Assembly: GCF_000303155.1 (NCBI RefSeq)
Contig: NC_018719.1
Location: 2,294,001 to 2,358,000, forward strand
Length of the DNA stretch: 64,000 nucleotides
Direction of reading: 5' to 3'
Source of the DNA: Candidatus Nitrososphaera gargensis Ga9.2
GTDB lineage: Archaea > Thermoproteota > Nitrososphaeria > Nitrososphaerales > Nitrososphaeraceae
Below the pieces are notes generated by a model. That model was not told the origin of the DNA, made no database searches, and saw only the letters and a program-made list of their open reading frames with translations. Of the stretch, positions 5,203 through 55,693 are shown one piece after another; position 1 is the stretch's first letter, and each line of letters opens with the position of its first letter. The translations under genes and the position numbers were made by a program.

Positions 5203-5686
5203 TCCGCCTATGACTGCACACCATTTGCCAGCTTGCCTTACGACTGTAACCTGTTTGATATTGATGGGTCTTCTGTGTATCCTTATCTCTATGCGGCCCA
5301 GCTTGGCAAGCCACAGAGTATACATTTACCACCTACATCCTGTTCCATCCTAAAGCCTGATTGGTTATAAGTGAATGAGTTACAATCACCTTCTTTCAAC
5401 AATTTGAGATTACCCTTGCCAGCTTCACAACCTCTCTTTTTCAATTCCTCTAGACCATCCACGCGGCTGCAACCGTTGTGCTTATCATCCGAAGCATTTT
5501 GCTATAATAATTTCTGAGTATTGGCTGCTGCTCCTTTAGCTCTGTTAGAGCAAAGTTCATGTCATTTCTGCTGCGAAAGTTATTGAGGATAAAGTAGTTG
5601 TACATAATGCGATTAATTTCTAGAACTTTCACAAGCCTCTGCTCCTGTTCCATAACTGGATAGAGACGGAACTTGTAGTTGAGCAT
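5203..5686 (-). pseudogene. tnpB: Truncated tnpB (IS200/IS605 family), N-terminal half only
   Basis: Remnant of the RNA-guided nuclease/accessory protein TnpB. From 5686 it encodes LNYKFRLYPVMEQEQRLVKV and YSKMLRMISTTVAAAW, the classic N-terminus. After frame changes it continues through EELKKRG-type sequence, YNQSGFRMEQD and finally KLGRIEIRIHR...NIKQVTVVRQAGKWCAVIGG near 5203. The RuvC catalytic core and zinc finger are missing. The break lies about 15 bases from the last CRISPR repeat, so insertion or recombination of this element probably ended the array. Confidence 0.75.
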
Positions 5687-5898
5687 CTAGTTTGTAGAGG
5701 CTGTTAATTAACATGTAAGGCACCTTGGTGAGAGAGAGTGATTATCTGTGTGGAAAACAAAAATCGACCTATCTGTACACAGCATGAAGTTTATTTGGTT
5801 TGTTGCCCTTTGTTTGCTAAGATACCTATCGATAGCTCGCTCAGCTAAATCACGCGTGTTTCCCACTTATCATTTATATAAGCTACAGGTCAAACTCT

Positions 5899-7395: not shown

Positions 7396-8479
7396 CCTCG
7401 ACAGCTCTGTCCCTGCTCAGCCGGATGTTGCCAAGATAGATTCTGTCAAAGGAGCCGACATCTGTCTGGACAAATATGCTGTGCGGGGTGATGCCTGTGA
7501 TAATGCCAAACCCGACTATCTGGCCGGCAGAGCCAAGACCGACGAACATCCTCTTCAGGTTCTCTGGCTCTAGCTGTACTATTGGAGGCCGCAGTATCTC
7601 TGACGGCGAAAACAGCCTGTCCATGTATACGAATTTGATGCGCGACAGCTCTACGGCATGCGATCCGCTGCCAACATATCTAAGGAATTGATCCAGCCGG
7701 CGGCTTGCCCGCTCGTATCTTGACTTTGATGCTTGGCCGCTTGGCGTGGCATGCAGAACCTGCCATGGTCCGCCTTGGAACGCGCCCAGCAATTCCGGAT
7801 TATCTCCAATGCACACTATGGCGTCAGGCTGCAGTTCACTTGCAATCATTAGCTTGTATTGGATGCCACCATCACTTGCGTAGCCGTCGGTGTTGACGAT
7901 GCAAGTGTCGCCAAGCGGGCCGACCCTGTCAAGAATGGATCTCAGCTTTTTTGCCACGAAACGGTCAAACCCTGCTGGCGAAGTGCTCCCTACAAATTCG
8001 AACAGGCTGGCATCGACATCTCTCAGATCGGTAACCTGTCGGGGTAGAACCGCAGCCCCGATGCTTGTGGGCGGCGCAAGGTCGCCCTGACCAATGTCGC
8101 CGTCTACAATGCATGGCACAAGCCCGCGATTGAGCATTACGTTTGCAAGGTATACAGAAAGGGTGGACTTGCCTGTGTCAGTTTCTCCGACAAGCATCAC
8201 CGTGGTTTTTTTGTTGCCTACCAAGTCAGTCAGTTCCTGGGTAATGCCTCGCCAGAGCGAGACTCCTGCCTTGGCAGGATCGGCCAGCCACATGCTCCCA
8301 CCGCGGCCAAGCCGCGCGCGCAGCCTGCACCGCCCGCGGGGTTCAAAGGGGAGCGCCTTGCCTGCCCTGACCGTGATCGTCTTGCCTGACACATCACTTC
8401 CAAGTACGTCGCATGCCCCGTCAACTGTTACAGTAGCAGGACCCTTGATCATGCGGACCTTGGCGGCGGTCGTCGACAC
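7382..8479 (-). CDS. Clp1/Grc3/Nol9-family polynucleotide 5'-kinase
   Basis: Phosphorylates 5'-hydroxyl RNA (and possibly DNA) ends, a role linked to RNA processing and repair. The Walker A MLVGETDTGKST is near residue 96-107, and the following DGDIGQGDLAPP is the signature of the Clp1/Grc3 group. The N-terminal (1-85) and C-terminal (about 290-365) beta domains flank the kinase core as in archaeal PNK. Transcribed convergently to queC with a 14-base overlap. Archaeal enzymes of this kind act alone, without eukaryotic cleavage-factor partners. Confidence 0.85.
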   Translation of the reverse strand: MSTTAAKVRMIKGPATVTVDGACDVLGSDVSGKTITVRAGKALPFEPRGRCRLRARLGRGGSMWLADPAKAGVSLWRGITQELTDLVGNKKTTVMLVGETDTGKSTLSVYLANVMLNRGLVPCIVDGDIGQGDLAPPTSIGAAVLPRQVTDLRDVDASLFEFVGSTSPAGFDRFVAKKLRSILDRVGPLGDTCIVNTDGYASDGGIQYKLMIASELQPDAIVCIGDNPELLGAFQGGPWQVLHATPSGQASKSRYERASRRLDQFLRYVGSGSHAVELSRIKFVYMDRLFSPSEILRPPIVQLEPENLKRMFVGLGSAGQIVGFGIITGITPHSIFVQTDVGSFDRIYLGNIRLSRDRAVEVRIA

Positions 8480-8592
8480 TGTGATGTAATATCAATCTCA
8501 TATCACAAATAATTCTTCTGAAGCGCATGGCGAATTAACCGGAAAAACAATGCTAAACGTTTATTTCTCTAGCAATAGACTCTACGTTAAAT

Positions 8593-10935
8593 TTGTCGGC
8601 CTCTGCAGGCTCTGAGCCTCAGCGCCCACCGGCTGAACATCAACATCAGCATCAACTTGTGCGCACCCTGAGCCTCATGGATATCATAATGGTAGGCATC
8701 GCCGGGATGATAGGCGGAGCCATATTCGTGCTTACCGGCCCAGCCATAGGTCTAGCAGGGGACGCCGTGATTATTGCCTTCATACTCAACGCCATAATAA
8801 CGCTCTTTACCGCAATGGCGTACGCCGAACTTGGCTCGGCCATGCCCGAGGCGGGCGGAGGGTACCTGTGGATAAGGGAGGGGCTTCCGCGTCCAAACGC
8901 CTTTATCAGCGGATGGATGGCATGGTTTGCCCACATCATAGCAGGGAGCCTATATGCGGTCGGCTTTGGGGCATTTATGTACTACCTGCTCGGTCCTGAG
9001 GTGGCCGGTGTACTTTCTGAAGAGCCTCTTCTTGGAATCATCCCGTTTGACAAGGTGATAGCCGTCGTTTCCATTGCAGCATTTACATACATCAACATCA
9101 AGGGCACTTCGGAGACAGGCAAGGCCGGCACCATAGTTACGCTTATTCAGCTTGGCACCATTTTCGCCTTGATAGGTGCCGGATTTTGGACGATGTACAA
9201 CAACCCGGACTGGACAACCAATTTTGCAGACTTTATGCCAACTGGCGTGGCCGGCCTTGTCGCTGCCATGGGCCTTACCTTCATCGCATTTGAAGGATAC
9301 GAGATCATAGTCCAGACAGGAGAAGAAGTCAAGAACCCAAAGAAGAACATACCCAGGGCGATATTCATCTCGCTTGCAATCGTGGTTACCTTGTACTGCC
9401 TTGTGGCTTTTGTCTCGATAGGATCCATATTCCCCGAAGGCATCGCGTCGTGGCAGTTCATAGGCGAAAACGGCGAGCTTGGCATCATGAGGGCGGCCGA
9501 GATGTTCCTGCCCTATGGAGTCTTTATAGTGCTTGGCGGCGGCATGGTATCAACCCTGGCCGCGCTGAACGCCACCACGTTTTCCTCAGCTAGGGTGGCC
9601 TTTGCAATGGGCAGGCACTACAACCTGCCGCATAAACTAAGTTCGATTCATCCTGTAAACAGGACGCCGCACGTCGCAATAATAATTTCAGGAGTAATCA
9701 TGGCGTTTGTGGCATACGCGCTTCCGCTTGCCGACATTGCAGTTGCTGCAGGCGTCATCTTTCTCCTCTTGTTTACGCAGGTCAACATTGCAGTGATAAC
9801 CATACGTAGGATATACGGCGACAAGCTGTCGTACGGTTTCAAGACGCCGCTATTCCCGGCGATTCCAATCATTGGAATCTTCCTGAAGCTCGGTCTTGCG
9901 CTGTACCTGCTCGTCACCCAGCCGCTCAGCTGGGGCATAACTGTACTCTGGATCTTGGTAGGCTTTGCGCTCTATCGCATGTATACCTTCAAGAGGGAGA
10001 TACAGCACTACGCTCCGCTGGTGACTTCCGAGGGAGACTTGAAGAGGCAGGACTATAGAATTCTGATCCCTTACACGCCAGAAAACCCTGACAGGCTCAT
10101 CAAGTATGCCATAAGGATAGCCAAGGAGACTGCCGGCGAGGTGAACATCCTGCGTGTGATAACGGTGCCGCACCAGACTCCGCTTTCTGCCGGCGTGGCC
10201 TTTGCCGACGCCGCCAAGAGGTCGTTTGAGCCGCTGGAAAAGATGCTTGATAAGGAGAACATACCAAACCACTATCTAGTCAGGGTCTCCCACGATGCAA
10301 CCGAGGCGATTCTGGCTACAATAGAGGAGCAAAAGATAGACGTGCTTGTCACCGATTTTGAAACGCTCCGGCGCGACAGGAAGCTGCTGACCCTGATGAC
10401 CTGCAAGGTGCTGGCGATAAGGGCAGAGAACGACGCGCTGGAGCTCGAGCCGGAGCATGTGCGCATAGACGCAGATCTAAAGTCACAGGCAATCCCTGCA
10501 GGAGAAAAGAAGAACATGGTAGTGGTCTACGACGGCGGGGAGCATTCAGACGTGGTGCTCAAGGCCACGAGCTGGCTTGAGCACTCGGGGCGCTTCAAAG
10601 TGGGCCTGCTTTCAATCAACAGGGGCGGCGGGGGCGAAAGGAGCAGCGTTACGATGCAGCAGGACTATCTTAGCCAGCTTGGAGTCGAGCTCAAAGAAGT
10701 GCAGCTGACAGAGAGCAGCTCAAAGTCGGCCGATATCATGCTGTCGGCAGCAAGCTCGTTCCAGCCCGACCTTGTGGTGATGGGAGCAACAGTGGGCGGC
10801 TTTTCCGTCTTTAACAATCCTGACTTTCTCGCGCTCTTGGATCAGTTCAACTGCCCCGTGATAATCGCAAGAGGCTTTACGATCCCCGGCGTGCACAGGG
10901 CCAAGTCTCTGCTAATGAGAGCGCTCCGGAAGTAG
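8593..10935 (+). CDS. APC-superfamily amino-acid transporter with C-terminal universal-stress-protein domains
   Basis: 780-residue membrane transporter. Residues about 25-465 hold some 12 membrane segments with APC hallmarks: MIGGAIFVLTGPAIGLAG in helix 1 and the helix 6 region FIAFEGYEIIVQTGEEVKNP. Residues about 475-610 and 635-770 are two cytoplasmic UspA-like domains, which often sense nucleotides or stress and regulate the transporter. Translation begins at TTG 8593 after an AT-rich promoter (a TTTATTT element near 8561). A single-gene unit; the substrate is unknown. The 3' end directly abuts a transposon remnant at 10936. Confidence 0.85.
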   Translation: MSASAGSEPQRPPAEHQHQHQLVRTLSLMDIIMVGIAGMIGGAIFVLTGPAIGLAGDAVIIAFILNAIITLFTAMAYAELGSAMPEAGGGYLWIREGLPRPNAFISGWMAWFAHIIAGSLYAVGFGAFMYYLLGPEVAGVLSEEPLLGIIPFDKVIAVVSIAAFTYINIKGTSETGKAGTIVTLIQLGTIFALIGAGFWTMYNNPDWTTNFADFMPTGVAGLVAAMGLTFIAFEGYEIIVQTGEEVKNPKKNIPRAIFISLAIVVTLYCLVAFVSIGSIFPEGIASWQFIGENGELGIMRAAEMFLPYGVFIVLGGGMVSTLAALNATTFSSARVAFAMGRHYNLPHKLSSIHPVNRTPHVAIIISGVIMAFVAYALPLADIAVAAGVIFLLLFTQVNIAVITIRRIYGDKLSYGFKTPLFPAIPIIGIFLKLGLALYLLVTQPLSWGITVLWILVGFALYRMYTFKREIQHYAPLVTSEGDLKRQDYRILIPYTPENPDRLIKYAIRIAKETAGEVNILRVITVPHQTPLSAGVAFADAAKRSFEPLEKMLDKENIPNHYLVRVSHDATEAILATIEEQKIDVLVTDFETLRRDRKLLTLMTCKVLAIRAENDALELEPEHVRIDADLKSQAIPAGEKKNMVVVYDGGEHSDVVLKATSWLEHSGRFKVGLLSINRGGGGERSSVTMQQDYLSQLGVELKEVQLTESSSKSADIMLSAASSFQPDLVVMGATVGGFSVFNNPDFLALLDQFNCPVIIARGFTIPGVHRAKSLLMRALRK

Positions 10936-11179
10936 GTGAACTACCCACGTTTGAAAACATGGGCTTCTTGCTTCCTCGACTGAAACTTGCTTATCTACTG
11001 TTTGACAAGTAGAGGCTTTGTCTCAGCATAGGTCTAGTCTAGATCCAATTTGAGAATGTTCAATGCTGCATTGTGATCTCTGTCCAAGACCAACTTGCAG
11101 TTTGGACATTCATGCATACGTTCGGATAGGTCTTTTTTGACAATATTTCTGCAGCCAGAGCATTTCTACGATGTCCCAT
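10936..11179 (-). mobile_element. tnpB: 3' end of an IS200/IS605-type tnpB with right-end hairpin (omega-RNA region)
   Basis: On the minus strand, 11179-11034 encodes the last part of TnpB: GTS, an in-frame stop, KCSGCRN (zinc-finger half), ECPNCKLVLDRDHNAALNIL (second zinc half and the RuvC-III Asp), and a stop at 11034. The downstream 100 bases end in a hairpin at 10944-10963 (CCCATGT/ACGTGGG with a G-U pair on the minus strand) and GTAGTTCAC, the typical right end where TnpB guide RNA terminates. The catalytic N-terminal part is absent. It is a different fragment from the one at 5203-5686 and does not join it in simple order. Confidence 0.78.
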
Positions 11180-11220
11180 AATTCTTATTTATCTTTAAGT
11201 ATGGTATATTCATCGGAAGG

Positions 11221-11742
11221 ATGATCAAGTCTGTCACGCTTACTGTGGAAAGGGAGTATCGCGTAGACACTGGGAAAAGCAGGATCAGAATAGATTATGA
11301 CTCTATGAATTCAATTAGCGCAGCCACTGGAGATCTGGTTAAGATTATTGCCACTAGACGCAAGAACTTCATTGCAAGATGCTTGCCTCTATATATCAAG
11401 GATCACAACAGGCAGATTGTCAGGATGGATTCAATCATCAGAGCTAAGCTCGGTGCGGTTATCGGAGATACAGTCAGTGTAAGTAAGGCGGATGTTGAAG
11501 ATAACAGGTACAAAAAGCTAATTCTCGTTCCTCTTCATGGCGCGCCTGCAAATCTCGATGGCAGATATATTGCAAACATACTGGCAAATACCAAAGTACA
11601 TCGAAACGACTTGGTATCTATTCCTCTATTGGGTAGGAAAAAAACTGCCGTATACCGTGTGAAGTCGATACTTCCCGCAAGTTTGTCCGTCATGTTCATT
11701 GATTCTGACCCGATGACAAACATCGAAATATCACAAGCCTGA
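11221..11742 (+). CDS. Standalone Cdc48/VAT N-terminal-domain protein (double-psi barrel), no AAA domain
   Basis: 173 residues resembling the substrate-recruiting N-domain of Cdc48/p97/VAT. VTLTVEREYRVDTGKSRIRI and MDSIIRAKLGAVIGDTVSV match the double-psi barrel: a single-start RIDYDSM segment, then SIIRxxLGxxxGDxVxV. No Walker A/B follows, so it cannot hydrolyse ATP. Residues 105-165 (ANLDGRYIANIL, DLVSIPLL) resemble the second half of the N-domain. It may act as an adaptor or a competitor of Cdc48; this is inference. Single gene between transposon and pseudogene remnants. Confidence 0.7.
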   Translation: MIKSVTLTVEREYRVDTGKSRIRIDYDSMNSISAATGDLVKIIATRRKNFIARCLPLYIKDHNRQIVRMDSIIRAKLGAVIGDTVSVSKADVEDNRYKKLILVPLHGAPANLDGRYIANILANTKVHRNDLVSIPLLGRKKTAVYRVKSILPASLSVMFIDSDPMTNIEISQA

Positions 11743-11799
11743 AGCGGTTGGAGTTAATTCTGCTCAGGCTAGGATTGGTCCTTAGTTTGTAGAGTAGGT

Positions 11800-14700
11800 C
11801 TATTTGTATCCCTTTGTCATATCCAAGATTATTGTCACTGATATAGGTGGGTTAGGCAGACAGTGATAATTTGCCTTCACCGTTATCAAAATCGGTTCAT
11901 GACCGCCTCCATGCTTATACATTGGAACGTTATTTGGTGTCCAAACGAATGTCTTGTAGGTACTGAAACCCCCACCGACGAATTTGTGTTTCGTCCAGCT
12001 CGGATCATCATTATTATTTTGTGAATTACTATACGTTGGAGAGTAAAGCTTCCAGTCAATGGATTCGATGAAATAATTCTTTCCCTTAGTACTATTGAAG
12101 CCGAAAGGTACCTTGAAGGTGACATAAGTCGTCGCGCACTCGAACCTGTTGGTTTGGGTTTGTTGGTTGTTGAAGTAACACCAGTGCCTGTTCACTATTT
12201 TGTTTGTACTTGAACTGCCGCCAGGGGTTCTTGCTACAAAAGCCTTTTTAAACCATATCTTGCCCCCTTGACAGCTCTCACCACTTCCAGTCCTAACCTC
12301 CCAAGTGCAAGTCTTGCGATAAGCTTGAGAGGTTCCACCATACTTTAGATCATAGGGAGCAGAAGAGCCCTCCTTCCATAATGCTCCTGTTGACAAGAGA
12401 CCAGCGGTTTGAACAGTAAGTTCATCAGGAGAAGAGAATACTTGGCCATAAGGTGTCGTTGGCGCCTGCCAGCCTGTGGCATTCTTAATGGTCTCGTATA
12501 TCACATTGTCCATACTGCAATAGATGTGTATGTTCTCATCAGAAGTTATGGTGATGGATGGCAGACTGTGACTGCCAGAGCCCACAGCTGTCTCCGTTCC
12601 GTTGAAGGTTCCGTCAGATTTGAGAATCTTTCCACATGCATAGTACCAGAATTACCGCCTGAAAGATAAGCCACATATGCAGTTCGTGTGCTATTCATCG
12701 TAGCAGCCGAGATTTGCTTTACAGTATTAACGCCCATGTCAGTTCCGCTTGCACTCTGAGCCGAACCCCAATTAGTTCCATCAAAGACTCTGTACTTTAG
12801 GTCTGAACTCTCGTAGAGCGCATACACAAATAGCATTTTACTTCCATTAAGTCCAGTAATCGACATGACAGGTCTTTCAGTACTTACATTATCTATCTGC
12901 GCCAGCGAAACTGCCCAGTTGAGCCCTCCGTCAACAGATCTCATGATCTGATATGAATAGGTGGATGAACCTCCTGATCCATAGCTAAATGCTGCATAGA
13001 TTTTGCCATCAATATCAGTTGCAGCCGCAACTGCAGCGCATGCGCCGCCACTGCCACACGCTGCAGAGTTTGCGAATGTATAACCTAGCAGTATGGGGCT
13101 ACTCCAAGTAATTGTTTCATTAGCTATTTGTCCTCTCAACACGTAGAAATTCATGTTCGAACCGGCAGGGGTCCAGTATAGTAGTACTGCATACTCGTTA
13201 TCCTGATATGTTGTAGCTATTACAGTCCATCTAAAGGTGTCTGAAGCAAGTACGCCTGAACCTGTTGAGACAGCTGTTCCGCTCCAAGTCTTGTCATCGT
13301 CAATCGAATTCCTGTACAAGATGTTGGAACCATCATAATAGAAAGCAAATTTGACCATATCTCCACTTTCGATGATCCGTTTTTCTCTTTGGTAATAATC
13401 AGTTTTTGTAGGAGAATTCTGATTGCTAGTTGTAGTTAGAGTTCCGTATTGAAGTATGGCAAACTTTAGTATGTATGGCACAGAGCTGCCTTCGGTCCAA
13501 AGAGCATAATTCATCTGGTCGATCGAATTCAGTGCCGTAAGTTGGTCAGGTGAGGTGAACGCTGTTCCAAAAGGATTGAATGGTTGTTCCCAGTTCGATC
13601 CGCTTCTCTTTCGAGTATCATAAACTTGCCGTCAGCTAAAGAATAGATATCTAGGTCTCCGTCAGTGAACCCGTTATCTCTAAACATGATGTTAGGAAGC
13701 CTGTTCCGTAATGTACTATCAGCAGTTTCTATAAGCTCAAAATGACCTGTAGCATTGAATCTTGCAACCTTTAATATTCCACCATTAGTACTAGTCACAT
13801 TAGTATACGCTAAGTACGCTGAAAGTGAGCTATCAGTTGCAGCAGATAGGTGCTTAAACGTTGCGCCAGTCAGATCCGTACCAGACAAGGTCTGCTCAGA
13901 ACCCCACGCGGAACCGCCGTATACCCTGTAAAAAATATTTGAGCTGCTTGATGTTGTATAAGCAAACAGCATTTTGCTCGAATTAAGCATGGTTAGTGCC
14001 ATTGCAAATCTATTGGAGCTGATATTATTTACCTGAGGCAGCGAAACAGACCAAGTCAGACCGCCATCGGCTGATCTCATAATTTGGTAAGAGTAAGTTG
14101 TTGAACCTCCTGACAGATACCCAAATGCGGCATATATGTATCCATTCGTATCTGTGGCAACTGCAACGGCAGCACAAGCACCACCGCTGCCACACGTTCC
14201 AGAATTGGAGGAGGTATAGCCCAATAGAATAGGGCTGCTCCAGCTTATATCCGCCCCGTTTGCTGCACCCCTTAGCGCATAGAAGTTCATGTTGCTCCCT
14301 GCAGGCGTCCAGTACAACAAAGAGGCGTAAGTTGTATTAGAGTAAACTGTAGTTATGATTGACCATCTGTACCTATCTGATGCGAGTGCTCCTGATCCTG
14401 TTGATATTGGAGTACTCCAAGTTTTTCCTCCATCATTTGGAGTTCTATACACTATGTTAGACCCATCGTAGTAGAATACGTTCAGCCTACCGCCAATTGT
14501 TACTATCCTCGTTTCTCCTTCGAACGTAGAATTACCAAATGGTGACATACTATTAGTCGCACTACTAACTACTGTTGGATCGATGACAAACAGTTTTCCA
14601 ACAGGTATACTGATAGAAGATTTTGCAGAGTCAACATACACATTGTGACCTGAGGCAATTGCATCCTTCCAATCAAGCTCCAGTCCATCCTCCACTACGT

Positions 14701-45595: not shown

Positions 45596-46024
45596 CTAGC
45601 GCATTGTCTTTAGTATGATTACGGTGTTGGTATCAGACACGCCCTCTATCTTGCGGATATCATCTATGCACTTGTTTATCTCGGCTATAGATGGAGCCGC
45701 AATTATCGCAGCAATGTCGTACTGGCCTGTTATTTCGTAGACCACTTCGACGCCGCCAAGCTTCATGAGCCTGTTGGACACGGCCGAGGTATCCGCGGTC
45801 GAAGCCACGGAAATCAGCGTTATGGCGCTTGTCTTGTCACTTGCGCCAAGCTCGATCGTAAAGCGCTTGATGACCCCGCTGTCCACCAGATTCTTGACCC
45901 TCCGGCGTACGGCCGATTCTGAAAGCCCTATTTCATTTGCGATCTCGACAAATGCTTTGCGGGAATCTGCCTGCATGATGTGGAGTATCTTCTCATCTGT
46001 CTCATCGATGTTAGCTGATGACAT
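45596..46024 (-). CDS. Lrp/AsnC-family regulator (LysM-like)
   Basis: 142 residues. HTH at 10-60 with NEIGLSESAVRRRVKNLVDS, then a RAM effector-binding domain (70-140, TLISVASTADTSAVSNRL, TGQYDIAAIIAA). Overlaps the 3' end of lysJ by 14 bases, so it ends the lysY-lysZ-lysJ-lrp operon. LysM of Sulfolobus, an Lrp-type protein, controls lysine genes; by analogy this protein may bind the GGTCA modules at 49115 and 51476. Confidence 0.85.
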   Translation of the reverse strand: MSSANIDETDEKILHIMQADSRKAFVEIANEIGLSESAVRRRVKNLVDSGVIKRFTIELGASDKTSAITLISVASTADTSAVSNRLMKLGGVEVVYEITGQYDIAAIIAAPSIAEINKCIDDIRKIEGVSDTNTVIILKTMR

Positions 46025-47195
46025 TCCTTCTCTTTTCCTCGCTAGTTAATACAGCGTCCATTATATCAACTGCGCGGGAAACCGTCGTTTCATCCATTAC
46101 AAGTGGCGGAAGGAGTCTTATAATGTTCCTTCCCGAGTACAACATAAGCAGTCCGTTGCGAATTCCGTCAAAGAGCACATCCTTTACCTCGAAGCGAAGC
46201 TCTACCCCGATCATCATGCCAAGGCCTCTCACCTCGCGGATTATCTTGTGCTTCTCTTTCAGCCGATTCAGGCCCTCTCTCCAGTGCCTGCCCATCTTGG
46301 CGGCGTTTTCAACAAGCTTGTCTTCGGTCAGCGCTTCAAGCGTCGCAGTGCCTGCAGCGCACGCTATCGGGCTCCCGCCAAAGGTTGACGAATGCTCGCC
46401 AAGCTTTGTCGCTTCCATTATCTCCCGCTTTGCCAGTATAAGACCCATCGGTATTCCGCCAGCGATCCCTTTTGCAAGGCACATGATGTCCGGCGTAGTG
46501 TTCCAGTTCTGCCCTGCCCACATCTTGCCTGTCCTGCCAAGGCCTGCCTGGATTTCGTCAAATATCAGGACGAGATTGCGCCTGTTGCAGATCTCTCTTA
46601 TCTTTGGCAGTAGGTCGTCTGGCGGCACAATGATGCCAGTCTCACCCTGTATCGGTTCCAGAATCACAGTTCCGATTGTGTCGTCGATGGCTTCTTCCAG
46701 CTTGCCTGGGTCGCTGTAGGGAACGAACTTGACTCCGTCCAAGAGCGGCATGAATGATTTGCGATACTTTTCATTGTAGGTTACAGAAAGCGCGCCAAAC
46801 GTCTTGCCGTGGTACGCGCCATTCATTGCTATTACGCCATGCTTGCCCGTATATTTGCGAGCAAACTTGAGCGCGCCTTCCACAGATTCGGCGCCACTGT
46901 TTGTAAAGAACATTTTGGTCAATCCTGGCGGCACCACAGTCGACATCTTGTCCATGAACTTTAGCCGAGTGTCATTGTATACAGACATGTGGGCGGTAAT
47001 GAGCATATCTGCCTGCTTTTTGATCGCAGCCACCACTCTGTCGTTGCAGTGGCCGACGAGTGCGACGCCATAGCCTCCCATGCAGTCAATGTATTCCTTG
47101 CCCGCGGTGTCCCACACTCGTGCGCCCTTGCCCCTTGCAAGGTTCACCGGGAACCTCTGGTAAAGTGCTGCCAGGTGCTGATCTTCGCCGTTCAT
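46011..47195 (-). CDS. lysJ: Acetylornithine/LysW-lysine aminotransferase
   Basis: 394-residue class III PLP aminotransferase. It moves an amino group to the LysW-bound semialdehyde, in lysine and/or ornithine synthesis. PLP lysine in CLAKGIAGGIPMGLILAKRE near 255; IFDEIQAGLGRTGKMWAGQ precedes it. Its start overlaps lysZ by four bases and its end overlaps lrp by 14. Whether it serves lysine, arginine or both cannot be read from the sequence. Confidence 0.9.
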   Translation of the reverse strand: MNGEDQHLAALYQRFPVNLARGKGARVWDTAGKEYIDCMGGYGVALVGHCNDRVVAAIKKQADMLITAHMSVYNDTRLKFMDKMSTVVPPGLTKMFFTNSGAESVEGALKFARKYTGKHGVIAMNGAYHGKTFGALSVTYNEKYRKSFMPLLDGVKFVPYSDPGKLEEAIDDTIGTVILEPIQGETGIIVPPDDLLPKIREICNRRNLVLIFDEIQAGLGRTGKMWAGQNWNTTPDIMCLAKGIAGGIPMGLILAKREIMEATKLGEHSSTFGGSPIACAAGTATLEALTEDKLVENAAKMGRHWREGLNRLKEKHKIIREVRGLGMMIGVELRFEVKDVLFDGIRNGLLMLYSGRNIIRLLPPLVMDETTVSRAVDIMDAVLTSEEKRRNVIS

Positions 47196-47995
47196 TTTGG
47201 AGTTATCACCGTGCAGTTATTGTGAGCAATGGCCGAAGAGATGGGGTTTTCAACCTGGCCGGAGGCAATTATCGCTTCCTTGACACCCATCTCAAGCGCC
47301 TCTGTGCAGGCAAGCACTTTCTTTTCCATGCCAAAACCTATCTTGGGCAGAGCCGCCTTTGCCTGCTCCAGAGTCATTGCGGTCACCAGCTTTTCGTTGA
47401 GTATCAGCCCGTTGACGTTTGTGATGAATATCACCTTGTCTGCCTTGACGCCGCCTGCGACGTATGCCGCCGCCCTGTCACCGTCGACATTCAGGAAATC
47501 GTATTCTTCGCTCAGCGCGATTGGCGACACTACCGGCACGAAGCCGTTGTCAACCAAGTTGTGTACCAGCGCCGGGTCGACTGCATTTATCTTGCCTGTA
47601 TAGCCGCCGTCAATCATCATCTTTCTCCCTTTTTCATTTATTATCAGCAACTTTTTCTTGCGCTCGGCTTTCAATATGCCGCCATCAATCCCGGCGATCC
47701 CTACAGCCTTGATGCCTTGGCGCAGGAGCATGCCTGTGATTGCCTTGTTTATCTTGCCTGACATGACCATTGTGTAAATGTCTGCAGTCTCTTTGTCAGT
47801 ATACCTGCTGCGCACTCCGCCTGGCGACACTATGAACTTTTGCTCCTTGCCCAGCTTTGTCGCAGTCGCGGTCACCTCCTTGCCGCCGCCGTGCACAAAG
47901 ACAAGCTTGTCCTTTTCAGTGATTGCCTTGATGTCTGCAAGGGTCGAGGGGTGCAGCCCGTCGACTACGCTTCCGCCTATCTTGATGACTATCAT
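47192..47995 (-). CDS. lysZ: LysW-aminoadipate/glutamate kinase
   Basis: 267-residue amino-acid kinase of the ArgB/LysZ family that phosphorylates the side-chain carboxyl of LysW-linked aminoadipate or glutamate. MIVIKIGGSVVDG at the start and FVHGGGKEVTATATKLG near 33-50 are the phosphate-binding segments. It overlaps lysY and lysJ by four bases each. Confidence 0.91.
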   Translation of the reverse strand: MIVIKIGGSVVDGLHPSTLADIKAITEKDKLVFVHGGGKEVTATATKLGKEQKFIVSPGGVRSRYTDKETADIYTMVMSGKINKAITGMLLRQGIKAVGIAGIDGGILKAERKKKLLIINEKGRKMMIDGGYTGKINAVDPALVHNLVDNGFVPVVSPIALSEEYDFLNVDGDRAAAYVAGGVKADKVIFITNVNGLILNEKLVTAMTLEQAKAALPKIGFGMEKKVLACTEALEMGVKEAIIASGQVENPISSAIAHNNCTVITPK

Positions 47996-49047
47996 ACCGG
48001 TGTCAGCGGAGTGTATTTCAGCCCTTCAGTTTCGTCATAGCCGGACATTACGTTCATGACCTGTATTGCAGAGCCGGCAGCGCCCTTCATGAGGTTGTCA
48101 GAAGCAGAAAGTGCCACTATCCTCTGGTTGTACTCGTCAATGTCAAAGCCCACATCGCAGAAGTTAGAGCCTACCACGAACTTGGGATCAGGGAACTTGT
48201 AAAGTCCCTTCTTGTCGCGGATCAGGCGCACGAATGGTTCGCCCTTGTACGAGTTGCGATACATCTTCCACAGCTCAAGCTCTTCTACCTGCCTCTTCAG
48301 GAACGTATGGTTCGTAGTCAGTATGCCTCTTACGATGTTGACTGCGTGGGGGCTCATGCTCACCTTGATCTGCTTTTTCGCTATCATTGACAGCTCTTGC
48401 TCTATTTCGCCGGTGTGCCTGTGCTTTGCCGGCTTGTACGGCCTGACGACACCATAGCGCATGGCATGGTGGGTGCCGGCGTTGGCCTTCTGGCCTGCGC
48501 CTGACGAGCCAATCTTGCTGTCCACTACGACGTGGTCGGTGTCAATAAGGTTGTTTTCAATCAGCGGCTTGAGCGCAAGGAGCGATGTCACTGCCATGCA
48601 GCCGGGGCACGACACCAGTTGCGCCTTCTTGATCTCTTCGCGGTGGAGCTCTGGCACGCCATAAACAGACTTGCTCAGCATGTCGGGAAAAGGATGCTCC
48701 CAGCCGTACCACCTGACATAGTCCTTTGGGTTCTTTAGCCTAAAATCAGCCGATAGGTCGATTACCTTCATCCCCCTGTCGTAGAGGTCCTTGACTATCT
48801 TGTTTGCCTTGCCGTGCGGCACCGACGTGAACACGAGGTCGCACGAGTTTGCCAGCTTTTCCGTGTCCATCGGCGAGAAGGTAATGTCAATGAATCCCTT
48901 CAAGCTTGGGTGGACGCGGTGCACGTACTCGCCGGCCTTTTGCCGCGACGTGACCATGTTCACCTCCACCTTTGGGTGAGTGACCAGCAGCCGAAGCAGC
49001 TCTCCTCCTACATATCCAGAAGCGCCAACTACTCCAACTTTCATCAT
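47992..49047 (-). CDS. lysY: LysW-aminoadipyl/glutamyl-phosphate reductase
   Basis: 351-residue NADPH-dependent reductase of the ArgC/LysY family. Rossmann loop VGVVGASGYVGGELLRLL at 3-20; catalytic Cys in VSCPGCMAVTSLLALKPL near 147; the His loop near SPHAVNIVRG. It opens the second operon of the cluster. A TATA-like tataaaat (about 49086-49093 on the minus strand) and the GGTCA module lie upstream. Confidence 0.91.
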   Translation of the reverse strand: MMKVGVVGASGYVGGELLRLLVTHPKVEVNMVTSRQKAGEYVHRVHPSLKGFIDITFSPMDTEKLANSCDLVFTSVPHGKANKIVKDLYDRGMKVIDLSADFRLKNPKDYVRWYGWEHPFPDMLSKSVYGVPELHREEIKKAQLVSCPGCMAVTSLLALKPLIENNLIDTDHVVVDSKIGSSGAGQKANAGTHHAMRYGVVRPYKPAKHRHTGEIEQELSMIAKKQIKVSMSPHAVNIVRGILTTNHTFLKRQVEELELWKMYRNSYKGEPFVRLIRDKKGLYKFPDPKFVVGSNFCDVGFDIDEYNQRIVALSASDNLMKGAAGSAIQVMNVMSGYDETEGLKYTPLTPV

Positions 49048-49114: not shown

Positions 49115-49174
49115 CATTTATATTTTTTGGTCAGATATGACCTAATGCAGGTCAATATTGACCAATTTTGGTCA
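49115..49174 (-). promoter_or_regulatory. 60-bp GGTCA regulatory module, copy upstream of lysY
   Basis: Contains the TATA-like CATTTATATTTTTT at 49115-49128 followed by three dyads: GGTCAGATATGACC (49129-49142), GGTCAATATTGACC (a perfect palindrome, 49150-49163) and GACCAATTTTGGTC (49159-49172). It aligns without gaps with the copy at 51476-51535. It lies between the lysX stop and the lysY start, so it can serve as an operator-promoter for the lysY operon. Confidence 0.8.
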
Positions 49175-50038
49175 TCACTTCTTGGCAAGCTTGACAGCAT
49201 AGTCTATCATTGCACCGGGGATGTCGGTCTTTGATACGCTGGCGGCGCCATGGAACTCGACTGTGTTATTCACTTCGTGAACAATTAGCCCACGCTTTTT
49301 ATCCTCCATCATGTCCACGCCCAAGATGCCGCCGCCGACAGCTTTTGCAGCTTTTATCGCCAGATCCTCAAGCTCTTTTGTTATCGGCGCAAGCTCGGCC
49401 TTACCTCCGCGGGCGACATTTGTGCGAAACTCATTTTCAGCAGAATAGCGGTAGATCGCGGTGACTACCCTGTTGCCCACCACTATGCATCTGATGTCCC
49501 TCGGCGGCCTGTCAATCATTTCTTGGACATAATAGATACGGGCAAGTGGGCTGTCGTCCTCTTCTCTCATTTCCACAATCATGCCGGCGGTCTCTTCGTC
49601 GCGCAGCGGGAATACTCCCCTGCCCCACGAGCCCACGATCGGCTTGAGCACCAGTGGAAAGCCGGCCTTGCGTATTGTTTCAAGCGCGCCTTCGGCGCTG
49701 AACGCAAACTGCGTTCTAGGGGTCGGGATGTTGTTCTCTGCCAGCACGAGCGAAGTTATCAGCTTATTGCCGCAGGTCTCAGCCACTTTGAACTTGTTTA
49801 TTATGTTAAAGCCCAAGTGCTCAAGGCAGGCAGTGAGGTACAGCCCCCGGTAGTGGCTCACGCTCCTCTGCATAATGACGTCGCCGAAGGTAAAATCCTT
49901 CTTTTTGCTGTCCGTGCTTACTGTCACCGTCTTGGCATCCACTATCTGCGCCTTTACACCCTTGCTCTGCGCTTTCTCGTACAGAACCTTCTCTTCAAAG
50001 CGCACCTTATCATAAATAATAGAGAGCTCTACCACCAT
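49175..50038 (-). CDS. lysX: LysW ligase LysX/ArgX (ATP-grasp)
   Basis: 287-residue ATP-grasp enzyme that joins the amino group of aminoadipate or glutamate to the C-terminal residue of LysW. ATP-grasp elements: FPLVLKPIVGSWGRGVFPL near 129-147, the IYYVQEMIDRPPRDIR region near 173 and EVNNTVEFHGAASVSK from 255. Its start overlaps the lysW stop as TAATG. Substrate specificity (lysine or arginine branch) cannot be fixed by eye, though argG in the same operon points to arginine. Confidence 0.9.
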   Translation of the reverse strand: MVVELSIIYDKVRFEEKVLYEKAQSKGVKAQIVDAKTVTVSTDSKKKDFTFGDVIMQRSVSHYRGLYLTACLEHLGFNIINKFKVAETCGNKLITSLVLAENNIPTPRTQFAFSAEGALETIRKAGFPLVLKPIVGSWGRGVFPLRDEETAGMIVEMREEDDSPLARIYYVQEMIDRPPRDIRCIVVGNRVVTAIYRYSAENEFRTNVARGGKAELAPITKELEDLAIKAAKAVGGGILGVDMMEDKKRGLIVHEVNNTVEFHGAASVSKTDIPGAMIDYAVKLAKK

Positions 50039-50217
50039 TATTGTCCCCAGTCTTCGCCTACTGTTTCAGCCGGCTTCAGCTCCACCTTGTCGCCACTCTT
50101 TGAGGCGATCTCGTAGTCGCCGCCGCAGTCGGGGCATGTCACTATTTCCCCTACTACCGCGTCTTCTGGAACGCTGATGTCGGCTCCACATTCTTGGCAT
50201 TCAACTTTTGATTTCAT
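50038..50217 (-). CDS. lysW: LysW amino-group carrier protein, C-terminal Gln
   Basis: 59-residue carrier that holds the growing substrate through its C-terminal residue. Zinc ribbon: Cys in VECQECGADISV and VTCPDCGGDYEI. It ends EDWGQ, followed by TAA. The usual family ending is EDWGE or EDFGE, where the last Glu is the attachment site. Here the last codon is CAA (Gln). Start is ATG 50217; it overlaps argG by four bases and lysX by one. Confidence 0.92.
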   Translation of the reverse strand: MKSKVECQECGADISVPEDAVVGEIVTCPDCGGDYEIASKSGDKVELKPAETVGEDWGQ

Positions 50218-51449
50218 TTTTTTCCTCCTTTTTGTTGTTGTTTCTTGTCTGAAGAAGTTGTTGCATCTGCAGCCACCGAGTTTGCGATGATAGACTGCAG
50301 GCCCCACAGCTCAACGAATCCCTTTGCCAGGCTCTGGTCAAAGGTCGACCCGGCGGCATAAGTCGCCAAGTCATTTTTGTATAGTGAATATTTCGATTCC
50401 CTGCCAACCACCCGGAGAGACCCTTTTTGCATCTTCAGCTTGACTTTTCCGGAAACTCGGACCTGAGTCGCATCTATAAACTTATCCAAGTCATTGCGCA
50501 GTGGATCCTGCCACAGCCCAGAGTATGCAAGCCAGCTCCACTGATCGTCGACCATCCGCTTGAATGCAAGTTCGTGCTTTGTCAGCACCATCTTTTCCAA
50601 ATCTTTATGGGCTTCGATTATCGTGACTGCTGCCGGCGCTTCATAGACCTCCCTTGACTTGATGCCGACTACACGGTCTTCGATGTGATCGACGATTCCA
50701 ACGCCGTGCGCGCCGGCCTTGTCGTTGACGTATTGTATCAGGTCAATGAGGGGCATGCGCTTGCCGTCGGCGGCTACCGGCACGCCCTTCTCAAATTCAA
50801 TCTCGACGTATCCGGCCTTGTCGTTCTGGAAGTTGATGTACTGGAACGCCTCTTCTGGCGGCTCAAAGTCGGCATCCTCTATGTTGCCGCCTTCAACAGC
50901 CCTGCCCCAGAGGTTTAGGTCGATGCTATATTTCTTGGCCTCGGCGCTTATAGGGATGTTCTGTTCCTTTGCAAATTTCATCTCAACGTCGCGGGTCAGG
51001 TTCATGTCCCGGATAGGCGCGATTATCTTTAGTTTTGGATTCAGCGCACGCATCGTAACGTCGAACCTTATCTGGTCGTTGCCCTTGCCTGTGCAGCCAT
51101 GCGCTATGGCAGTCACTCCTTCTCTGTTTGCAACTTCGACTACCTTTGCGGCGATCAGCGGGCGCGCAAGTGCGGTGGCAAGCGGGTACTTGCCCTGGTA
51201 CAGGCCGTTGGCCTTGATGCTTGGAACAACGTAATCATGAGCAAATTCTTCGCGGGCGTCTATGTAGATATGCTTTATTGCCCCTATTGCCTTGGCTTTC
51301 TTTTCGATCTCTTTAAAGTCGTCCTCCTGGCCGCAGTCAACCGTGACTGTTATTACATCAAGCTTGTGCAGAGTCTGTAGATACCTTATGCATACAGAAG
51401 TGTCCAAGCCCCCCGAGTAGGCCAGAACAACCTTGCCGCTATTTCCCAA
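50214..51449 (-). CDS. argG: Argininosuccinate synthase
   Basis: 411-residue enzyme joining citrulline and aspartate in arginine synthesis. PP-loop VVLAYSGGLDTSVCIRYL at 6-23; AIAHGCTGKGNDQIRFDV near 113; YSIDLNLWGRAVEGG near 175. It starts at TTG 51449 soon after a GGTCA module and reads into lysW-lysX. The last residues (KKQQQKGGKK) are a basic Gln/Gly tail. Its place with lysW-lysX suggests that the LysW route makes arginine here. Confidence 0.93.
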   Translation of the reverse strand: MGNSGKVVLAYSGGLDTSVCIRYLQTLHKLDVITVTVDCGQEDDFKEIEKKAKAIGAIKHIYIDAREEFAHDYVVPSIKANGLYQGKYPLATALARPLIAAKVVEVANREGVTAIAHGCTGKGNDQIRFDVTMRALNPKLKIIAPIRDMNLTRDVEMKFAKEQNIPISAEAKKYSIDLNLWGRAVEGGNIEDADFEPPEEAFQYINFQNDKAGYVEIEFEKGVPVAADGKRMPLIDLIQYVNDKAGAHGVGIVDHIEDRVVGIKSREVYEAPAAVTIIEAHKDLEKMVLTKHELAFKRMVDDQWSWLAYSGLWQDPLRNDLDKFIDATQVRVSGKVKLKMQKGSLRVVGRESKYSLYKNDLATYAAGSTFDQSLAKGFVELWGLQSIIANSVAADATTSSDKKQQQKGGKK

Positions 51450-51475
51450 TTACATGCGTTGCGTTTCAAGCACTA

Positions 51476-51535
51476 CATTTATATTTTTTGGTCAGGAATG
51501 ACCTAAATCAGGGTGATAATGACCAATGCTGGTCA
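51476..51535. promoter_or_regulatory. 60-bp GGTCA regulatory module between argG and the ACT-domain gene
   Basis: Same layout as 49115-49174: CATTTATATTTTTT at 51476-51489, then GGTCAGGAATGACC (51490-51503), a weaker GGTGATAATGACC (51512-51524) and GACCAATGCTGGTC (51520-51533). Read on the minus strand the TATA part faces argG; on the plus strand TTTATATTT faces the divergent gene, whose ATG (51526) lies inside the module. It probably gives shared control of both directions. Confidence 0.8.
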
Positions 51536-52218
51536 ACAATGAAAAATCGATAACGAACGCAGTCAAAGAGGTCGTCAACAACGACCTGTCGTTCCAAGAC
51601 TCGCTCCAGCGCGACTACTGCAACATAAGTGCGCTTGCCCGGCTAATCAAGCCACATGTAGACCAGCTGCTTGGCGGTAAGAACACGAGCATCGAGAGCA
51701 TAGTCACCGCGCTCAAGAGGTCAAGGCGCGACTATGACGTGCCGGAAAAGCCGATAGCGTCCATACTGGCGGGCAGCACGATAAGCGTCAGGACCGACGT
51801 AGCCAAGGTCTCGGCCGAAAAGAGCAAAAAGACGATCGAGAAGGTCGCAAAGGCCATGACACAAAACGTTGGCAACTTTATCAGCGTATCAGAGAGCATC
51901 ATGTCGATCACGCTCGTGTTTGATGACGCGCTCCTTGACGAGGTCAAGGCGATGTTCGCCCACGACGACATTCTAGAGATCGAAGACGACCTGGCCGCGA
52001 TCATTGTGCATAGCCCCGAAGAGATAATCAAGACGCCGGGGTGTGCAATTGCGTTCTATAACCAGCTCGCCCGCCGCCATATCAACATCGAAGACACCGT
52101 CAGCTGCTATACTGATACAATCGTTCTTGTCAAGATGGAGCAGGTAGGCAAGGCGTTCAATGCGCTTACTGATCTGATATCAGGCTCTAGAAAGATGCCA
52201 AAAAAGAAGCACAGGTGA
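51526..52218 (+). CDS. ACT-domain protein, possible amino-acid sensor
   Basis: 230 residues. The N-terminal half is helical with an HTH-like segment (DYCNISALARLIKPHVDQLL, then SIESIVTALKRSRRDYDV). The C-terminal half has two ACT-like units (about 130-175 and 180-225, IMSITLVFDDALLDEV; CAIAFYNQLARRHINIEDTV). The layout suits a regulator that senses an amino acid. It is divergent from argG across a shared module, which supports a role in arginine or lysine control. Confidence 0.7.
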   Translation: MLVNNEKSITNAVKEVVNNDLSFQDSLQRDYCNISALARLIKPHVDQLLGGKNTSIESIVTALKRSRRDYDVPEKPIASILAGSTISVRTDVAKVSAEKSKKTIEKVAKAMTQNVGNFISVSESIMSITLVFDDALLDEVKAMFAHDDILEIEDDLAAIIVHSPEEIIKTPGCAIAFYNQLARRHINIEDTVSCYTDTIVLVKMEQVGKAFNALTDLISGSRKMPKKKHR

Positions 52219-52221
52219 TTA

Positions 52222-54666
52222 TTACTGCCTGTCCCCCATCACGGCAACCTGAGCGCGTTTTATGCTGAGCAGCGCAAACAGAGCAGAGACTGCCGCTCCT
52301 GCGTATAATCCAAGCCCGATCAGTAGGTTCCCGCTAAATCCCACGATCATTGCAAGCGTGGCAGCAAGGACCGTCCCTATTATCGAGGCAATAACGTTGA
52401 CACCCCACAGCAAGGTGGTGTTGTCTTCCTTGTTTTTCACAAGCGAAGCCATGCTGATAAGCGACGGGAACTGGAAGCCCATCAGGAGGCCGGCGGGGAA
52501 CAAGAGCGCCACAGTGAGCGCGGCTCTGGCTGTGAGATCCATTGTTATGCTCGAATCTATGATCCCTTGCAAAAAGTAAAAGTTGAACAGGATCATGCCT
52601 GCCAAGATTGGCACCGAAACAAACACCGCCCTATACGGTCTGCCGCCAAACAGTCTGCCGCTCAGGTATGCGCCTATCCCGCTTGACAAAAGGATGGAGA
52701 ACAGTATGACTGTCAGGGCCATTATGGGGGTCCCAAGCAACAATAGGAACTTTTGGATAAAGGTAATCTCTAGAATCATAAAGCCAAGGCCTATAAATAC
52801 CGCAAAGAGGACGTGGGACCCGGACGTGGCATCCATCCTTGCCTTTTTCTTTCTGGCGTTCCACATAAGCAGGACTGATAGCCCGGCAGAGATGCCAAGC
52901 ACGGTCTCAAGCAGGACTATCATCTGCTGCGGCACCGGTTCCCTTGCAAAGTAGAATGGTGAGTCGTCCGTCGGGACCTTGGGGTTTGAGACTTGAGCGA
53001 AATAGTCGTTGTAGCCTTCGCTTGAAAAGAGCTTGTCATATGGAGGTTCTATGTACTCATCAGACAGCATGATAATGTCAGCGCGGCCTTGCTCTGCCTT
53101 TTCCCTTGTCAGGTCGATCTGGGCATCTGTAAATGGCGTTGGCTTGACTACAACCAGAACGGGGTAGTATGTTTGCGCGTCATCGGTCCGCCCAAAGAAA
53201 AGCCCCGGCCTGTCTTCAACTACCATGACATGCTTGCTTACCTCTTCCCTGCTCTTACCTGTCTCCTTCATAAGAGAATCGGCCATAAGCGGCATCAGCC
53301 GCGGCAGCTCAAAATTCCACCTTATCATGACAAGCATGCCATCTTCGTTCAGGTGACGCAGGTACTGCTGGAATGCTTCTGTGGTGTAAAGGTAGTTCTC
53401 GGAAAGCGCGTAGCCGCCCGCAAGTTGCGCAGCCCAGGAATCCACCAGCTTGATCATTATCGCGTCGTATTTCTCTTCTGTCGAGCTGATAAAGCGCCGG
53501 CCATCATCTATGAACAATTGAACGTTGTCGCGCTCGTACGGGCTGCCTGCCGGATCTGCAAACCGCTTTGCAGCAGAGACTATCAGGGGGTTCAGCTCGA
53601 CAACGGTAACTTGCTCCGAGCCGCCCGCCAGCGCCACCAGAATGTCTTCGCCTCCCCCTCCCCCGATGACGAGCGTGCTTTCCACTTTATCTATCTCGTA
53701 TGGCAAGTAGTCCATGTATTTCTGCATCCAGAGGAGATCACTTTGCGAGCCATTCCAGCGAAATATCGGCGTGCCGGCATCCGCATCAATAATGATCGCG
53801 GCAAGCTCTCGGGAGTCTTCTGTCGAATCATAGTTGTTGAGAGTGCTATTCACCTTGGTTTCCCGTGTAACATCGATGCGCGAAAAAGAGTTCCACTCTT
53901 TTGAGAGGTGCTCAAACCTTTCTGGGTTCTTGAGCTGGTAGTACAGTCCCTTGTTGCTGCCAGGACGCACTTCAAACGCGTCAAAGGCCGATGCATTCCC
54001 CGCTATCGGCACCAGCAGAGTCGCCGCAAGGACGATGCCTGCAAGCATCTTGAGCCTATCTGTTATTACTGCGATCCCACTTGGAAGGCCCTTGAGCGCA
54101 AGCGCTCCTGCTATGGCCGACCCTGCAACCATGGGGGCCGTCAGGAGGATCACGTATTCCGCTCCAAACCCCCTCATAAGAGGGTCCAAGAGAAGCGTGG
54201 CTGCCGCGGCACCTACCAAATCTGCAAAGTACAGCTTGCTTATCTTTTGCGGCATTGCGTAAAACACCAGCGCCATTACCGACCCGGCGAAAAAGAATGG
54301 GACAGACGACACCAAGTAAAAGAGGTGTATGTTGGAAGTGCTTGGCGGGATCGCTGATATCAGGAAGACAAACACAGGTACCGAAATGGCGTACGCGACT
54401 GCAAAGTAGATTATCCTAGACGACAGCTGCTCCTTCCTTTCATATATGCTCTTCCACTTGGCGCTGTCCTTTTGGATGTGTATTACAAGCGAGCCTATCC
54501 CGAGGCCAAAGAACGCCACAGAGATCGCCATGAATGCATAGTCATACCAGAGGATGATGGAAAAGACCCTAGTCAGCGCAAGCTCGAACAGTATAGTGCT
54601 GAGGGAGGCAAAAAACAGGACTACAAGCAGAAAGATAAGGAAGGGTTTCAAATAGCCTGTATACAA
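52222..54666 (-). CDS. Membrane-bound spermidine-synthase-like protein
   Basis: 814 residues. Seven or so membrane helices come first (about 8-60, 85-105, 115-140, 150-225). Residues 250-600 are a SpeE-like methyltransferase-fold domain with VIGGGGGED at 333-341 and ELNPLIVSAAKRF near 355. A second set of helices follows (about 620-810). Related membrane-fused SpeE proteins are known in bacteria and archaea without a proven aminopropyl transfer. Monocistronic, promoter region at 54667-54784. Confidence 0.82.
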   Translation of the reverse strand: MYTGYLKPFLIFLLVVLFFASLSTILFELALTRVFSIILWYDYAFMAISVAFFGLGIGSLVIHIQKDSAKWKSIYERKEQLSSRIIYFAVAYAISVPVFVFLISAIPPSTSNIHLFYLVSSVPFFFAGSVMALVFYAMPQKISKLYFADLVGAAAATLLLDPLMRGFGAEYVILLTAPMVAGSAIAGALALKGLPSGIAVITDRLKMLAGIVLAATLLVPIAGNASAFDAFEVRPGSNKGLYYQLKNPERFEHLSKEWNSFSRIDVTRETKVNSTLNNYDSTEDSRELAAIIIDADAGTPIFRWNGSQSDLLWMQKYMDYLPYEIDKVESTLVIGGGGGEDILVALAGGSEQVTVVELNPLIVSAAKRFADPAGSPYERDNVQLFIDDGRRFISSTEEKYDAIMIKLVDSWAAQLAGGYALSENYLYTTEAFQQYLRHLNEDGMLVMIRWNFELPRLMPLMADSLMKETGKSREEVSKHVMVVEDRPGLFFGRTDDAQTYYPVLVVVKPTPFTDAQIDLTREKAEQGRADIIMLSDEYIEPPYDKLFSSEGYNDYFAQVSNPKVPTDDSPFYFAREPVPQQMIVLLETVLGISAGLSVLLMWNARKKKARMDATSGSHVLFAVFIGLGFMILEITFIQKFLLLLGTPIMALTVILFSILLSSGIGAYLSGRLFGGRPYRAVFVSVPILAGMILFNFYFLQGIIDSSITMDLTARAALTVALLFPAGLLMGFQFPSLISMASLVKNKEDNTTLLWGVNVIASIIGTVLAATLAMIVGFSGNLLIGLGLYAGAAVSALFALLSIKRAQVAVMGDRQ

Positions 54667-54784: not shown

Positions 54785-55693
54785 GTGTACCGGCGTTATA
54801 CGCTCGAAGAGGTCAAGCGCAAAATAGTCGACATTTTGCAGGGCGCCGGCACGGGCCTGTCCGGCATAGAGCTGGCGGACAGGACAGGCATCAACAGGAT
54901 GACGATCACGAAATACCTTGACATCATGCACGCGATGGGACTTGTGAAAAAGAAAAAGACAGGCAACGTGAACGTATGGTTCCTTGAGACTGGTGTCGCC
55001 GATATTGAGTTTCCCGTGAACTACATCCAAGTGCAGCAAAAGCTGATAAGCGCTGTCATGGCCGGCGAGGAGGAGCAGGCGCGCAGGATACTGCTGAGCG
55101 TGCTTAATTCAGACATTGATCAGGTGAGGGTACTGACTGACGTTATCCTGCCGGCTACAAACACCATAGGTGAGCTATACAGCAGGGGCAGAGTTGACAA
55201 GACCGAGAGGGCGTTCCTGCTCAACCTGATGATGGAGCTGATAGATCTGGTAAAGTTCAATGTCAGGCCGTCTGAGCAAAAGGCAAACGCCAACATGCTT
55301 GCTGTTGCCGGCTCTGACGACAAGGTGCACGTGGCCAAGAGCGCAGCTGTGGCTTTTTCGGTGCTTGGGTGGGACGCGCTTTACATAGGCGATGTAGAGG
55401 AGCAGATCGATCCCTTCTTTGATATCGACTTTCAGCGCTATATTTTGCGTGTTTGGGGCGCTAAGCGCGGCCTGATGCTTGTCTGCATATTTTCGTCCGG
55501 CGAGGGGTCGCTCCGGTTCCTCTCGTCCACAGCCAAGGCAATGAGAGGCAGGCTCAAGGGCGAGCTCCGGGTAGCAGTCCTTGCCACGCCGGAACTGCAG
55601 GCGGTAGCAGAGGAGAACTCTGACCACGTCGCAAAGGATCTCCTGTCACTGGTCCAGTGGGCCGAGCGCGAATACAACAGCGCTGTCAGGTAG
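54785..55693 (+). CDS. HTH regulator with B12-binding-like domain (degenerate site)
   Basis: 302 residues. The N-terminal winged HTH (IELADRTGINRMTITKYLDI) is followed by a four-helix cap (SAVMAGEEEQARRILLSVLN, then TNTIGELYSRGRVDKTERAF) and a Rossmann-like domain (MLAVAGSDDKVHVAKSAAVA, GWDALYIGD). The order matches CarH/LitR-like B12 photoreceptors. The cobalamin motif DxHxxG is not intact (SDDKVHVAKS), so another ligand or no ligand is possible. Start is GTG 54785. Confidence 0.68.
   Translation: MYRRYTLEEVKRKIVDILQGAGTGLSGIELADRTGINRMTITKYLDIMHAMGLVKKKKTGNVNVWFLETGVADIEFPVNYIQVQQKLISAVMAGEEEQARRILLSVLNSDIDQVRVLTDVILPATNTIGELYSRGRVDKTERAFLLNLMMELIDLVKFNVRPSEQKANANMLAVAGSDDKVHVAKSAAVAFSVLGWDALYIGDVEEQIDPFFDIDFQRYILRVWGAKRGLMLVCIFSSGEGSLRFLSSTAKAMRGRLKGELRVAVLATPELQAVAEENSDHVAKDLLSLVQWAEREYNSAVR

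Follow-up and report, generated by a model that had tools for sequence, protein, structure and literature searches.

Two operons in the ammonia-oxidising archaeon Candidatus Nitrososphaera gargensis Ga9.2 are each preceded by a 60-bp block of GGTCA repeats, which raises the question of which protein reads these blocks and which amino acid it answers to. The window analysed here is the 64,000-bp stretch from 2,294,001 to 2,358,000 of the single 2,833,868-bp contig NC_018719.1, and coordinates below refer to it. An earlier note on this DNA had described twin blocks that align without gaps, each with a shared TATA stretch followed by three GGTCA-type dyads in the same register. The twin arrangement holds, as 49115-49174 and 51476-51535 agree at 50 of 60 positions in a gapless alignment, against 31 of 60 for the runner-up 60-mer within the window. 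The common layout is a TATA element followed by GGTCA-N4-TGACC-N7-(GGTCA)-N4-TGACC-N6-GGTCA, in which the dyad (GGTCA-N4-TGACC) measures 14 bp and the dyad-to-dyad spacing is 21 bp. The shared register was likewise found, but block 1 consists of two full dyads and a half-site, one of the dyads being the perfect palindrome already noted (GGTCAATATTGACC, 49150-49163), and the second dyad of block 2, although in the same register, is degenerate (GGGTGATAATGACC, 51511-51524). Exact half-sites lie at 49129, 49150 and 49170 (GGTCA) and 49138 and 49159 (TGACC) in block 1, and at 51490 and 51531 (GGTCA) and 51499 and 51520 (TGACC) in block 2, i.e., five and four per 60 bp against a window average of 0.12 per 60 bp. 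Both blocks begin with CATTTATATTTTTT, which on the minus strand is a TATA element (TATAAAT) preceded by an A-tract; since both operons are on the minus strand, the TATA is the gene-proximal element, with the dyads upstream of it. The blocks precede lysY-lysZ-lysJ-lrp and argG-lysW-lysX, the latter block being shared with a divergent ACT-domain gene, as had been proposed, and they look like promoter-linked operators of these two operons. The features involved are as follows:

45596-46024, minus strand: Lrp/AsnC-family protein in a LysM-like position (Pfam HTH_AsnC-type and AsnC_trans_reg)
46011-47195, minus strand: lysJ aminotransferase (Pfam)
47192-47995, minus strand: lysZ (Pfam)
47992-49047, minus strand: lysY (Pfam)
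49115-49128, minus strand: TATA/BRE region of the lysY promoter, CATTTATATTTTTT, minus strand AAAAAATATAAATG, identical in both blocks
49129-49142: putative operator dyad 1 upstream of lysY, GGTCAGATATGACC, one of seven exact genome sites
49150-49163: putative operator dyad 2 upstream of lysY, palindrome GGTCAATATTGACC, 21 bp from dyad 1
49170-49174, plus strand: third GGTCA half-site, adjoining the lysX stop codon
49175-50038, minus strand: lysX-like ATP-grasp ligase beside argG, presumably argX (Pfam); a second copy lies in a separate lysine operon
50041-50217, minus strand: lysW carrier protein (Pfam Zn_ribbon_LysW)
50214-51449, minus strand: argG, argininosuccinate synthase, TTG start (Pfam)
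51476-51489, minus strand: TATA/BRE region of the argG promoter; such an A/T stretch directly adjoins a GGTCA-like half-site at 66 of 79 ACT loci
51490-51503: putative operator dyad 1 between argG and the ACT gene, GGTCAGGAATGACC
51511-51524: degenerate putative operator dyad 2 in the argG-ACT gap, GGGTGATAATGACC, 21 bp from dyad 1
51526-52218, plus strand: ACT gene, 230 aa, proposed regulator (Pfam ACT_7), with a helical N-terminal domain and two ACT domains
51531-51535, plus strand: last GGTCA half-site of block 2, within the first ACT codons; 60 of 79 loci have GG[TC]CA where the ACT gene begins

By pattern-based scans, which used no weight matrix and may thus have missed weak single sites elsewhere, the twin blocks are the sole two places of this kind in the 2.83-Mb genome. 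A pattern of four half-sites with up to three mismatches matched these two blocks only (reversed control, 0), and the TATA element with the first dyad, again with at most three mismatches, retrieved exactly the argG and lysY promoters in each of seven genomes (control, 0). Exact GGTCA-N4-TGACC occurs seven times genome-wide, three of these within the twin blocks. The other four sites were discarded as extra regulon members, being located inside genes or in a convergent spacer. A "terminator" called at 49150 is merely the dyad palindrome, and a sigma-70 promoter scan is uninformative for an archaeon.

The lys/arg locus was retrieved from about 40 genomes of the order (Nitrososphaerales). Half-sites upstream of argG are conserved, nearly always, wherever the ACT gene is kept: the argG-ACT gap of these genomes has half-sites adjoining the argG TATA, and the argG-side block persists in nearly all relatives with a divergent ACT gene, as far as Bathyarchaeota. 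The earlier note had taken absence of the block from close relatives as telling against its reading, and such absence was found, but it goes with absence of the ACT gene. The block is missing in all 15 examined genomes without this gene, which come from various genera of the family to which the window belongs and from a further family that looks like Nitrosopumilaceae (f9). Exact half-sites upstream of argG averaged 2.8 in 23 genomes with the ACT gene vs 0.13 in the 15 without, in a comparison whose rank test ignores relatedness. On a four-protein concatenated tree, the ACT gene changes three times and the operator follows in 2.7 of 3 independent pairs, with 0 in the opposite direction, although three independent changes are too few for significance alone. 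As the block is absent where the ACT gene is absent and Lrp is unchanged there, the module tracks the ACT gene and not Lrp.

A profile scan extended this picture to 80 named ACT loci from Nitrososphaera, Nitrosocaldus, Nitrosothermus, Gagatemarchaeum, other Thaumarchaeota and Bathyarchaeota, and in all 80 the ACT gene is divergent from argG. The intervening gap contains an exact half-site in 73 of 79 loci, with GGCCA-like variants in several others, and in 66 a GGTCA-like half-site directly adjoins the TATA or T-tract. Some families (Nitrosocaldus, Nitrosothermus) have a weak first dyad. The second block, upstream of lysY, was detected only in the Nitrososphaera group and closely related genera (G022, G110), in which at least 100 bp separate lysX from lysY, and the lysY TATA/BRE region is kept in the Nitrososphaera-type genomes with the ACT gene that were examined. 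No second block was seen in the other families with the ACT gene, in which lysX-lysY spacing is mostly tight.

Several neighbouring features were observed along the way. In one Nitrososphaera genome (G101, locus L063), an insertion of about 7 kb (5577-12733) separates lysX from lysY, and both blocks remain at their own promoters. The ACT gene of the window is adjoined by an 814-aa membrane protein (52222-54666) that looks spermidine-synthase-like, a possible polyamine/arginine link. Further on lies a regulator-like gene (54785-55693, MYRRYTLEEVKRKI...), apparent relatives of which begin just upstream of argG in three genomes without the ACT gene (L069, L090, L091), an arrangement consistent with clean loss of ACT.

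Pfam ACT_7 is present in 21 of 21 members of the ACT protein family, and an AlphaFold2 model based on 47 orthologues (mean pLDDT 89) places five helices in the N-terminal domain (residues 9-18, 21-29, 34-48, 56-69 and 74-82), followed by two ACT domains. The ACT pair (residues 85-223) has the fold of the aspartokinase regulatory domain, with a TM-score by target of about 0.7. Residues Q24, Y31, N33, R39, K64 and R65 of the N-terminal domain are invariant, and judged by eye on the model, helix 56-69 resembles a recognition helix. Searches of Pfam, NCBIfam, PDB sequences and Foldseek returned no match to the N-terminal domain, DNA-binding or otherwise, nor did hhalign match its profile to the Lrp HTH. 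The protein has no Pfam or NCBIfam match to the ArgR family, and its C-terminal fold is that of aspartokinase ACT domains instead.

Additional, independent evidence comes from a paralogous ACT subfamily (profile E-values 1e-11 to 1e-24). Its genes are divergent neighbours of hsp20 and cdc48 in many ammonia oxidisers, and elsewhere they occur close to thermosome genes or hflX. The corresponding gap carries GTAAT-N4-ATTAC dyads beside the hsp20 TATA, found at gap 4 in 9 of 20 sequences vs 2.7 in shuffles; the excess extends beyond gap 4, in part since a longer dyad is counted at more than one gap. The predicted recognition helix reads ESIVTALKR in the GGTCA branch and NTIVVAIKR in the GTAAT branch. 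Half-site and helix thus differ in step while the 5-N4-5 geometry stays constant, as expected of a DNA-binding regulator family. The hsp20-cdc48 paralogues with a conserved GTAAT-N4-ATTAC by the hsp20 TATA (L196, L197, L198, L205, L206 and L211-L240) are candidate heat-shock or proteostasis regulators. Five further paralogues (L199, L201, L202, L204 and L208) have GTAAT-N4-ATTAC-like dyads upstream and an NTIVVA-type helix, and among these, thermosome genes lie near L199 and L208, and HflX near L201.

In further Thermoproteota, ACT relatives adjoin carA-carB (L249-L259), argG (L264, L266, L268) or a transporter, which is a Lys/Arg/Orn-type ABC transporter for L263, L271 and L272. Five of the loci with a carAB neighbour (L252, L254, L255, L256, L259) display a TATA or T-tract that leads into GGTCA, after which the ACT start itself is marked by a GTGAC...GGTCA pair. 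GTTAC-type repeats were seen by the distant relatives L264 (beside argG), L267 (beside another transporter-like gene) and L272, and the L272 repeat (GTTACAAATGTAAC) is again 5-N4-5. With argG, carAB and a basic-amino-acid transporter as neighbours, the shared theme is arginine, not lysine. The earlier note's "complete arginine/lysine regulon" is accordingly overstated, as the separate lysine operon at about 1.13 Mb (homocitrate-synthase-like gene, lysW2, lysX2 and a lysK-like gene) has no block, and this lysine-only operon was accordingly rejected as a target. Lysine would therefore be affected only via the shared lysYZJ enzymes.

We give a probability of about 0.8 to the ACT protein being the reader of both blocks; it had been proposed as a candidate regulator together with Lrp, and it is the best candidate. 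We infer that the protein binds DNA as a dimer, with its N-terminal helical domain (residues 9-82, predicted recognition helix 56-69) contacting the GGTCA-N4-TGACC dyads. Because the dyads are 21 bp apart, or two helical turns, two dimers could share one DNA face, on which they would sit side by side, abutting the TFB/TBP site of argG and lysY and covering the ACT gene start. The aspartokinase-like double ACT domain would sense an end-product amino acid, with arginine as the most likely ligand. At high arginine, the bound dimers would block the pre-initiation complex at argG-lysW-argX, at lysY-lysZ-lysJ-lrp and at the ACT gene, the latter amounting to self-regulation, and we lean towards this repression rather than activation as the mode of control.

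The sign of regulation could also be the opposite, and a serious, if less probable, alternative is that the arginine-free dimer sits by the BRE and recruits TBP/TFB to argG and lysY, as Ptr2 and LysM do, with the same site repressing the ACT gene. A site just upstream of the BRE also suits an activator (PMC2995911), and the half-site abutting the argG TATA/BRE in 66 of 79 loci is near the position used by Ptr2, LysM and Ss-LrpB (PMC2995911), while the last half-site covers the ACT start. However, this site is so near the BRE that it could exclude TFB just as well, and in the paralogues the dyad sits downstream of the hsp20 TATA, an arrangement that would favour repression in this family.

Other readings attribute the blocks to a different protein. 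The Lrp/AsnC protein ending the lysY operon, also named as a candidate by the earlier note, might read them in response to lysine or arginine, like LysM of Sulfolobus: it is a genuine AsnC-type protein at a LysM-like place, and archaeal activators of the Lrp family work from clustered dyads in helical phase immediately upstream of the BRE (PMC2995911). Yet in the genomes without the ACT gene that had the lrp region on the retrieved stretch, lrp still follows lysJ and encodes the same LSESA(V/I)RRR helix (or MSESAVRRR), and no genome without the ACT gene has the module, while GGTCA remains by the ACT gene beside carAB in other Thermoproteota. Hence the operator does not persist wherever the Lrp orthologue persists, its recognition helix being essentially identical, and we rejected Lrp as the block reader, a role that now appears very improbable. 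It is also unlikely that the role of the ACT protein is restricted to sensing the amino acid and that a third DNA-binding protein, lost along with it, recognises the blocks. The lack of a recognised DNA-binding relative for the N-terminal domain would fit such a division of labour, but each of the two ACT subfamilies is accompanied, next to its own gene, by a distinct dyad of similar geometry, and one N-terminal helix changes to match; at this locus, with the window's own proteins as probes, no third gene besides the lys/arg enzymes was seen to follow ACT.

Returning to the ACT protein as reader, we would, with some hesitation, go further and favour the view that these proteins are transcription factors of an old family that spans the Thermoproteota and whose DNA-binding domain is absent from current fold and family libraries. 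An arginine branch (argG, carAB, the LysW arginine branch and amino-acid transport) would act via GGTCA-type sites and a proteostasis branch (hsp20, cdc48, thermosome) via GTAAT-N4-ATTAC, with operator letters that follow the helix and a 5-N4-5 geometry that stays. A literature search, partial for subscription journals, in which an earlier description may exist, returned no paper on this regulator. To our knowledge, the control of arginine synthesis in archaea outside Sulfolobus is largely uncharacterised, and very few regulators have been assigned in ammonia-oxidising archaea. Here, regulator, operator and regulon are predicted together; if correct, this would represent a new regulator family whose DNA-binding domain is as yet undescribed, and would provide a function for many proteins annotated only as "ACT domain" or by weak aspartate kinase matches.

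Among the closest known systems is LysM, the Lrp-family regulator of lysWXJK in Sulfolobus. The two have in common the pathway, the placing of dyads immediately upstream of an archaeal promoter, an amino-acid effector (inferred here) and an Lrp gene in the operon, whereas here the blocks are most likely read by an ACT-domain protein whose N-terminus is unrelated, and the targets are the argG and lysY operons rather than a lysine-only operon. At its promoters, ArgR binds pairs of palindromes spaced by about two helical turns, and ArgR/AhrC resembles the present system in this pairing and in having arginine genes, carAB and transport as neighbours or targets, but here there is no ArgR fold or family match, the sensor is an ACT domain and the operator sequence is different. 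BCARR of Lactobacillus helveticus is reported as an amino-acid-responsive transcription regulator associated with ACT/CBS-type sensor domains, but has N-terminal CBS domains, is bacterial and responds to branched-chain amino acids (PMC3795697). Finally, the regulatory domain of aspartate kinase has the same double ACT fold as residues 85-223 and binds amino acids in solved structures, whereas in the N. gargensis protein this fold comes with no kinase domain and is instead fused to a helical, putative DNA-binding domain.
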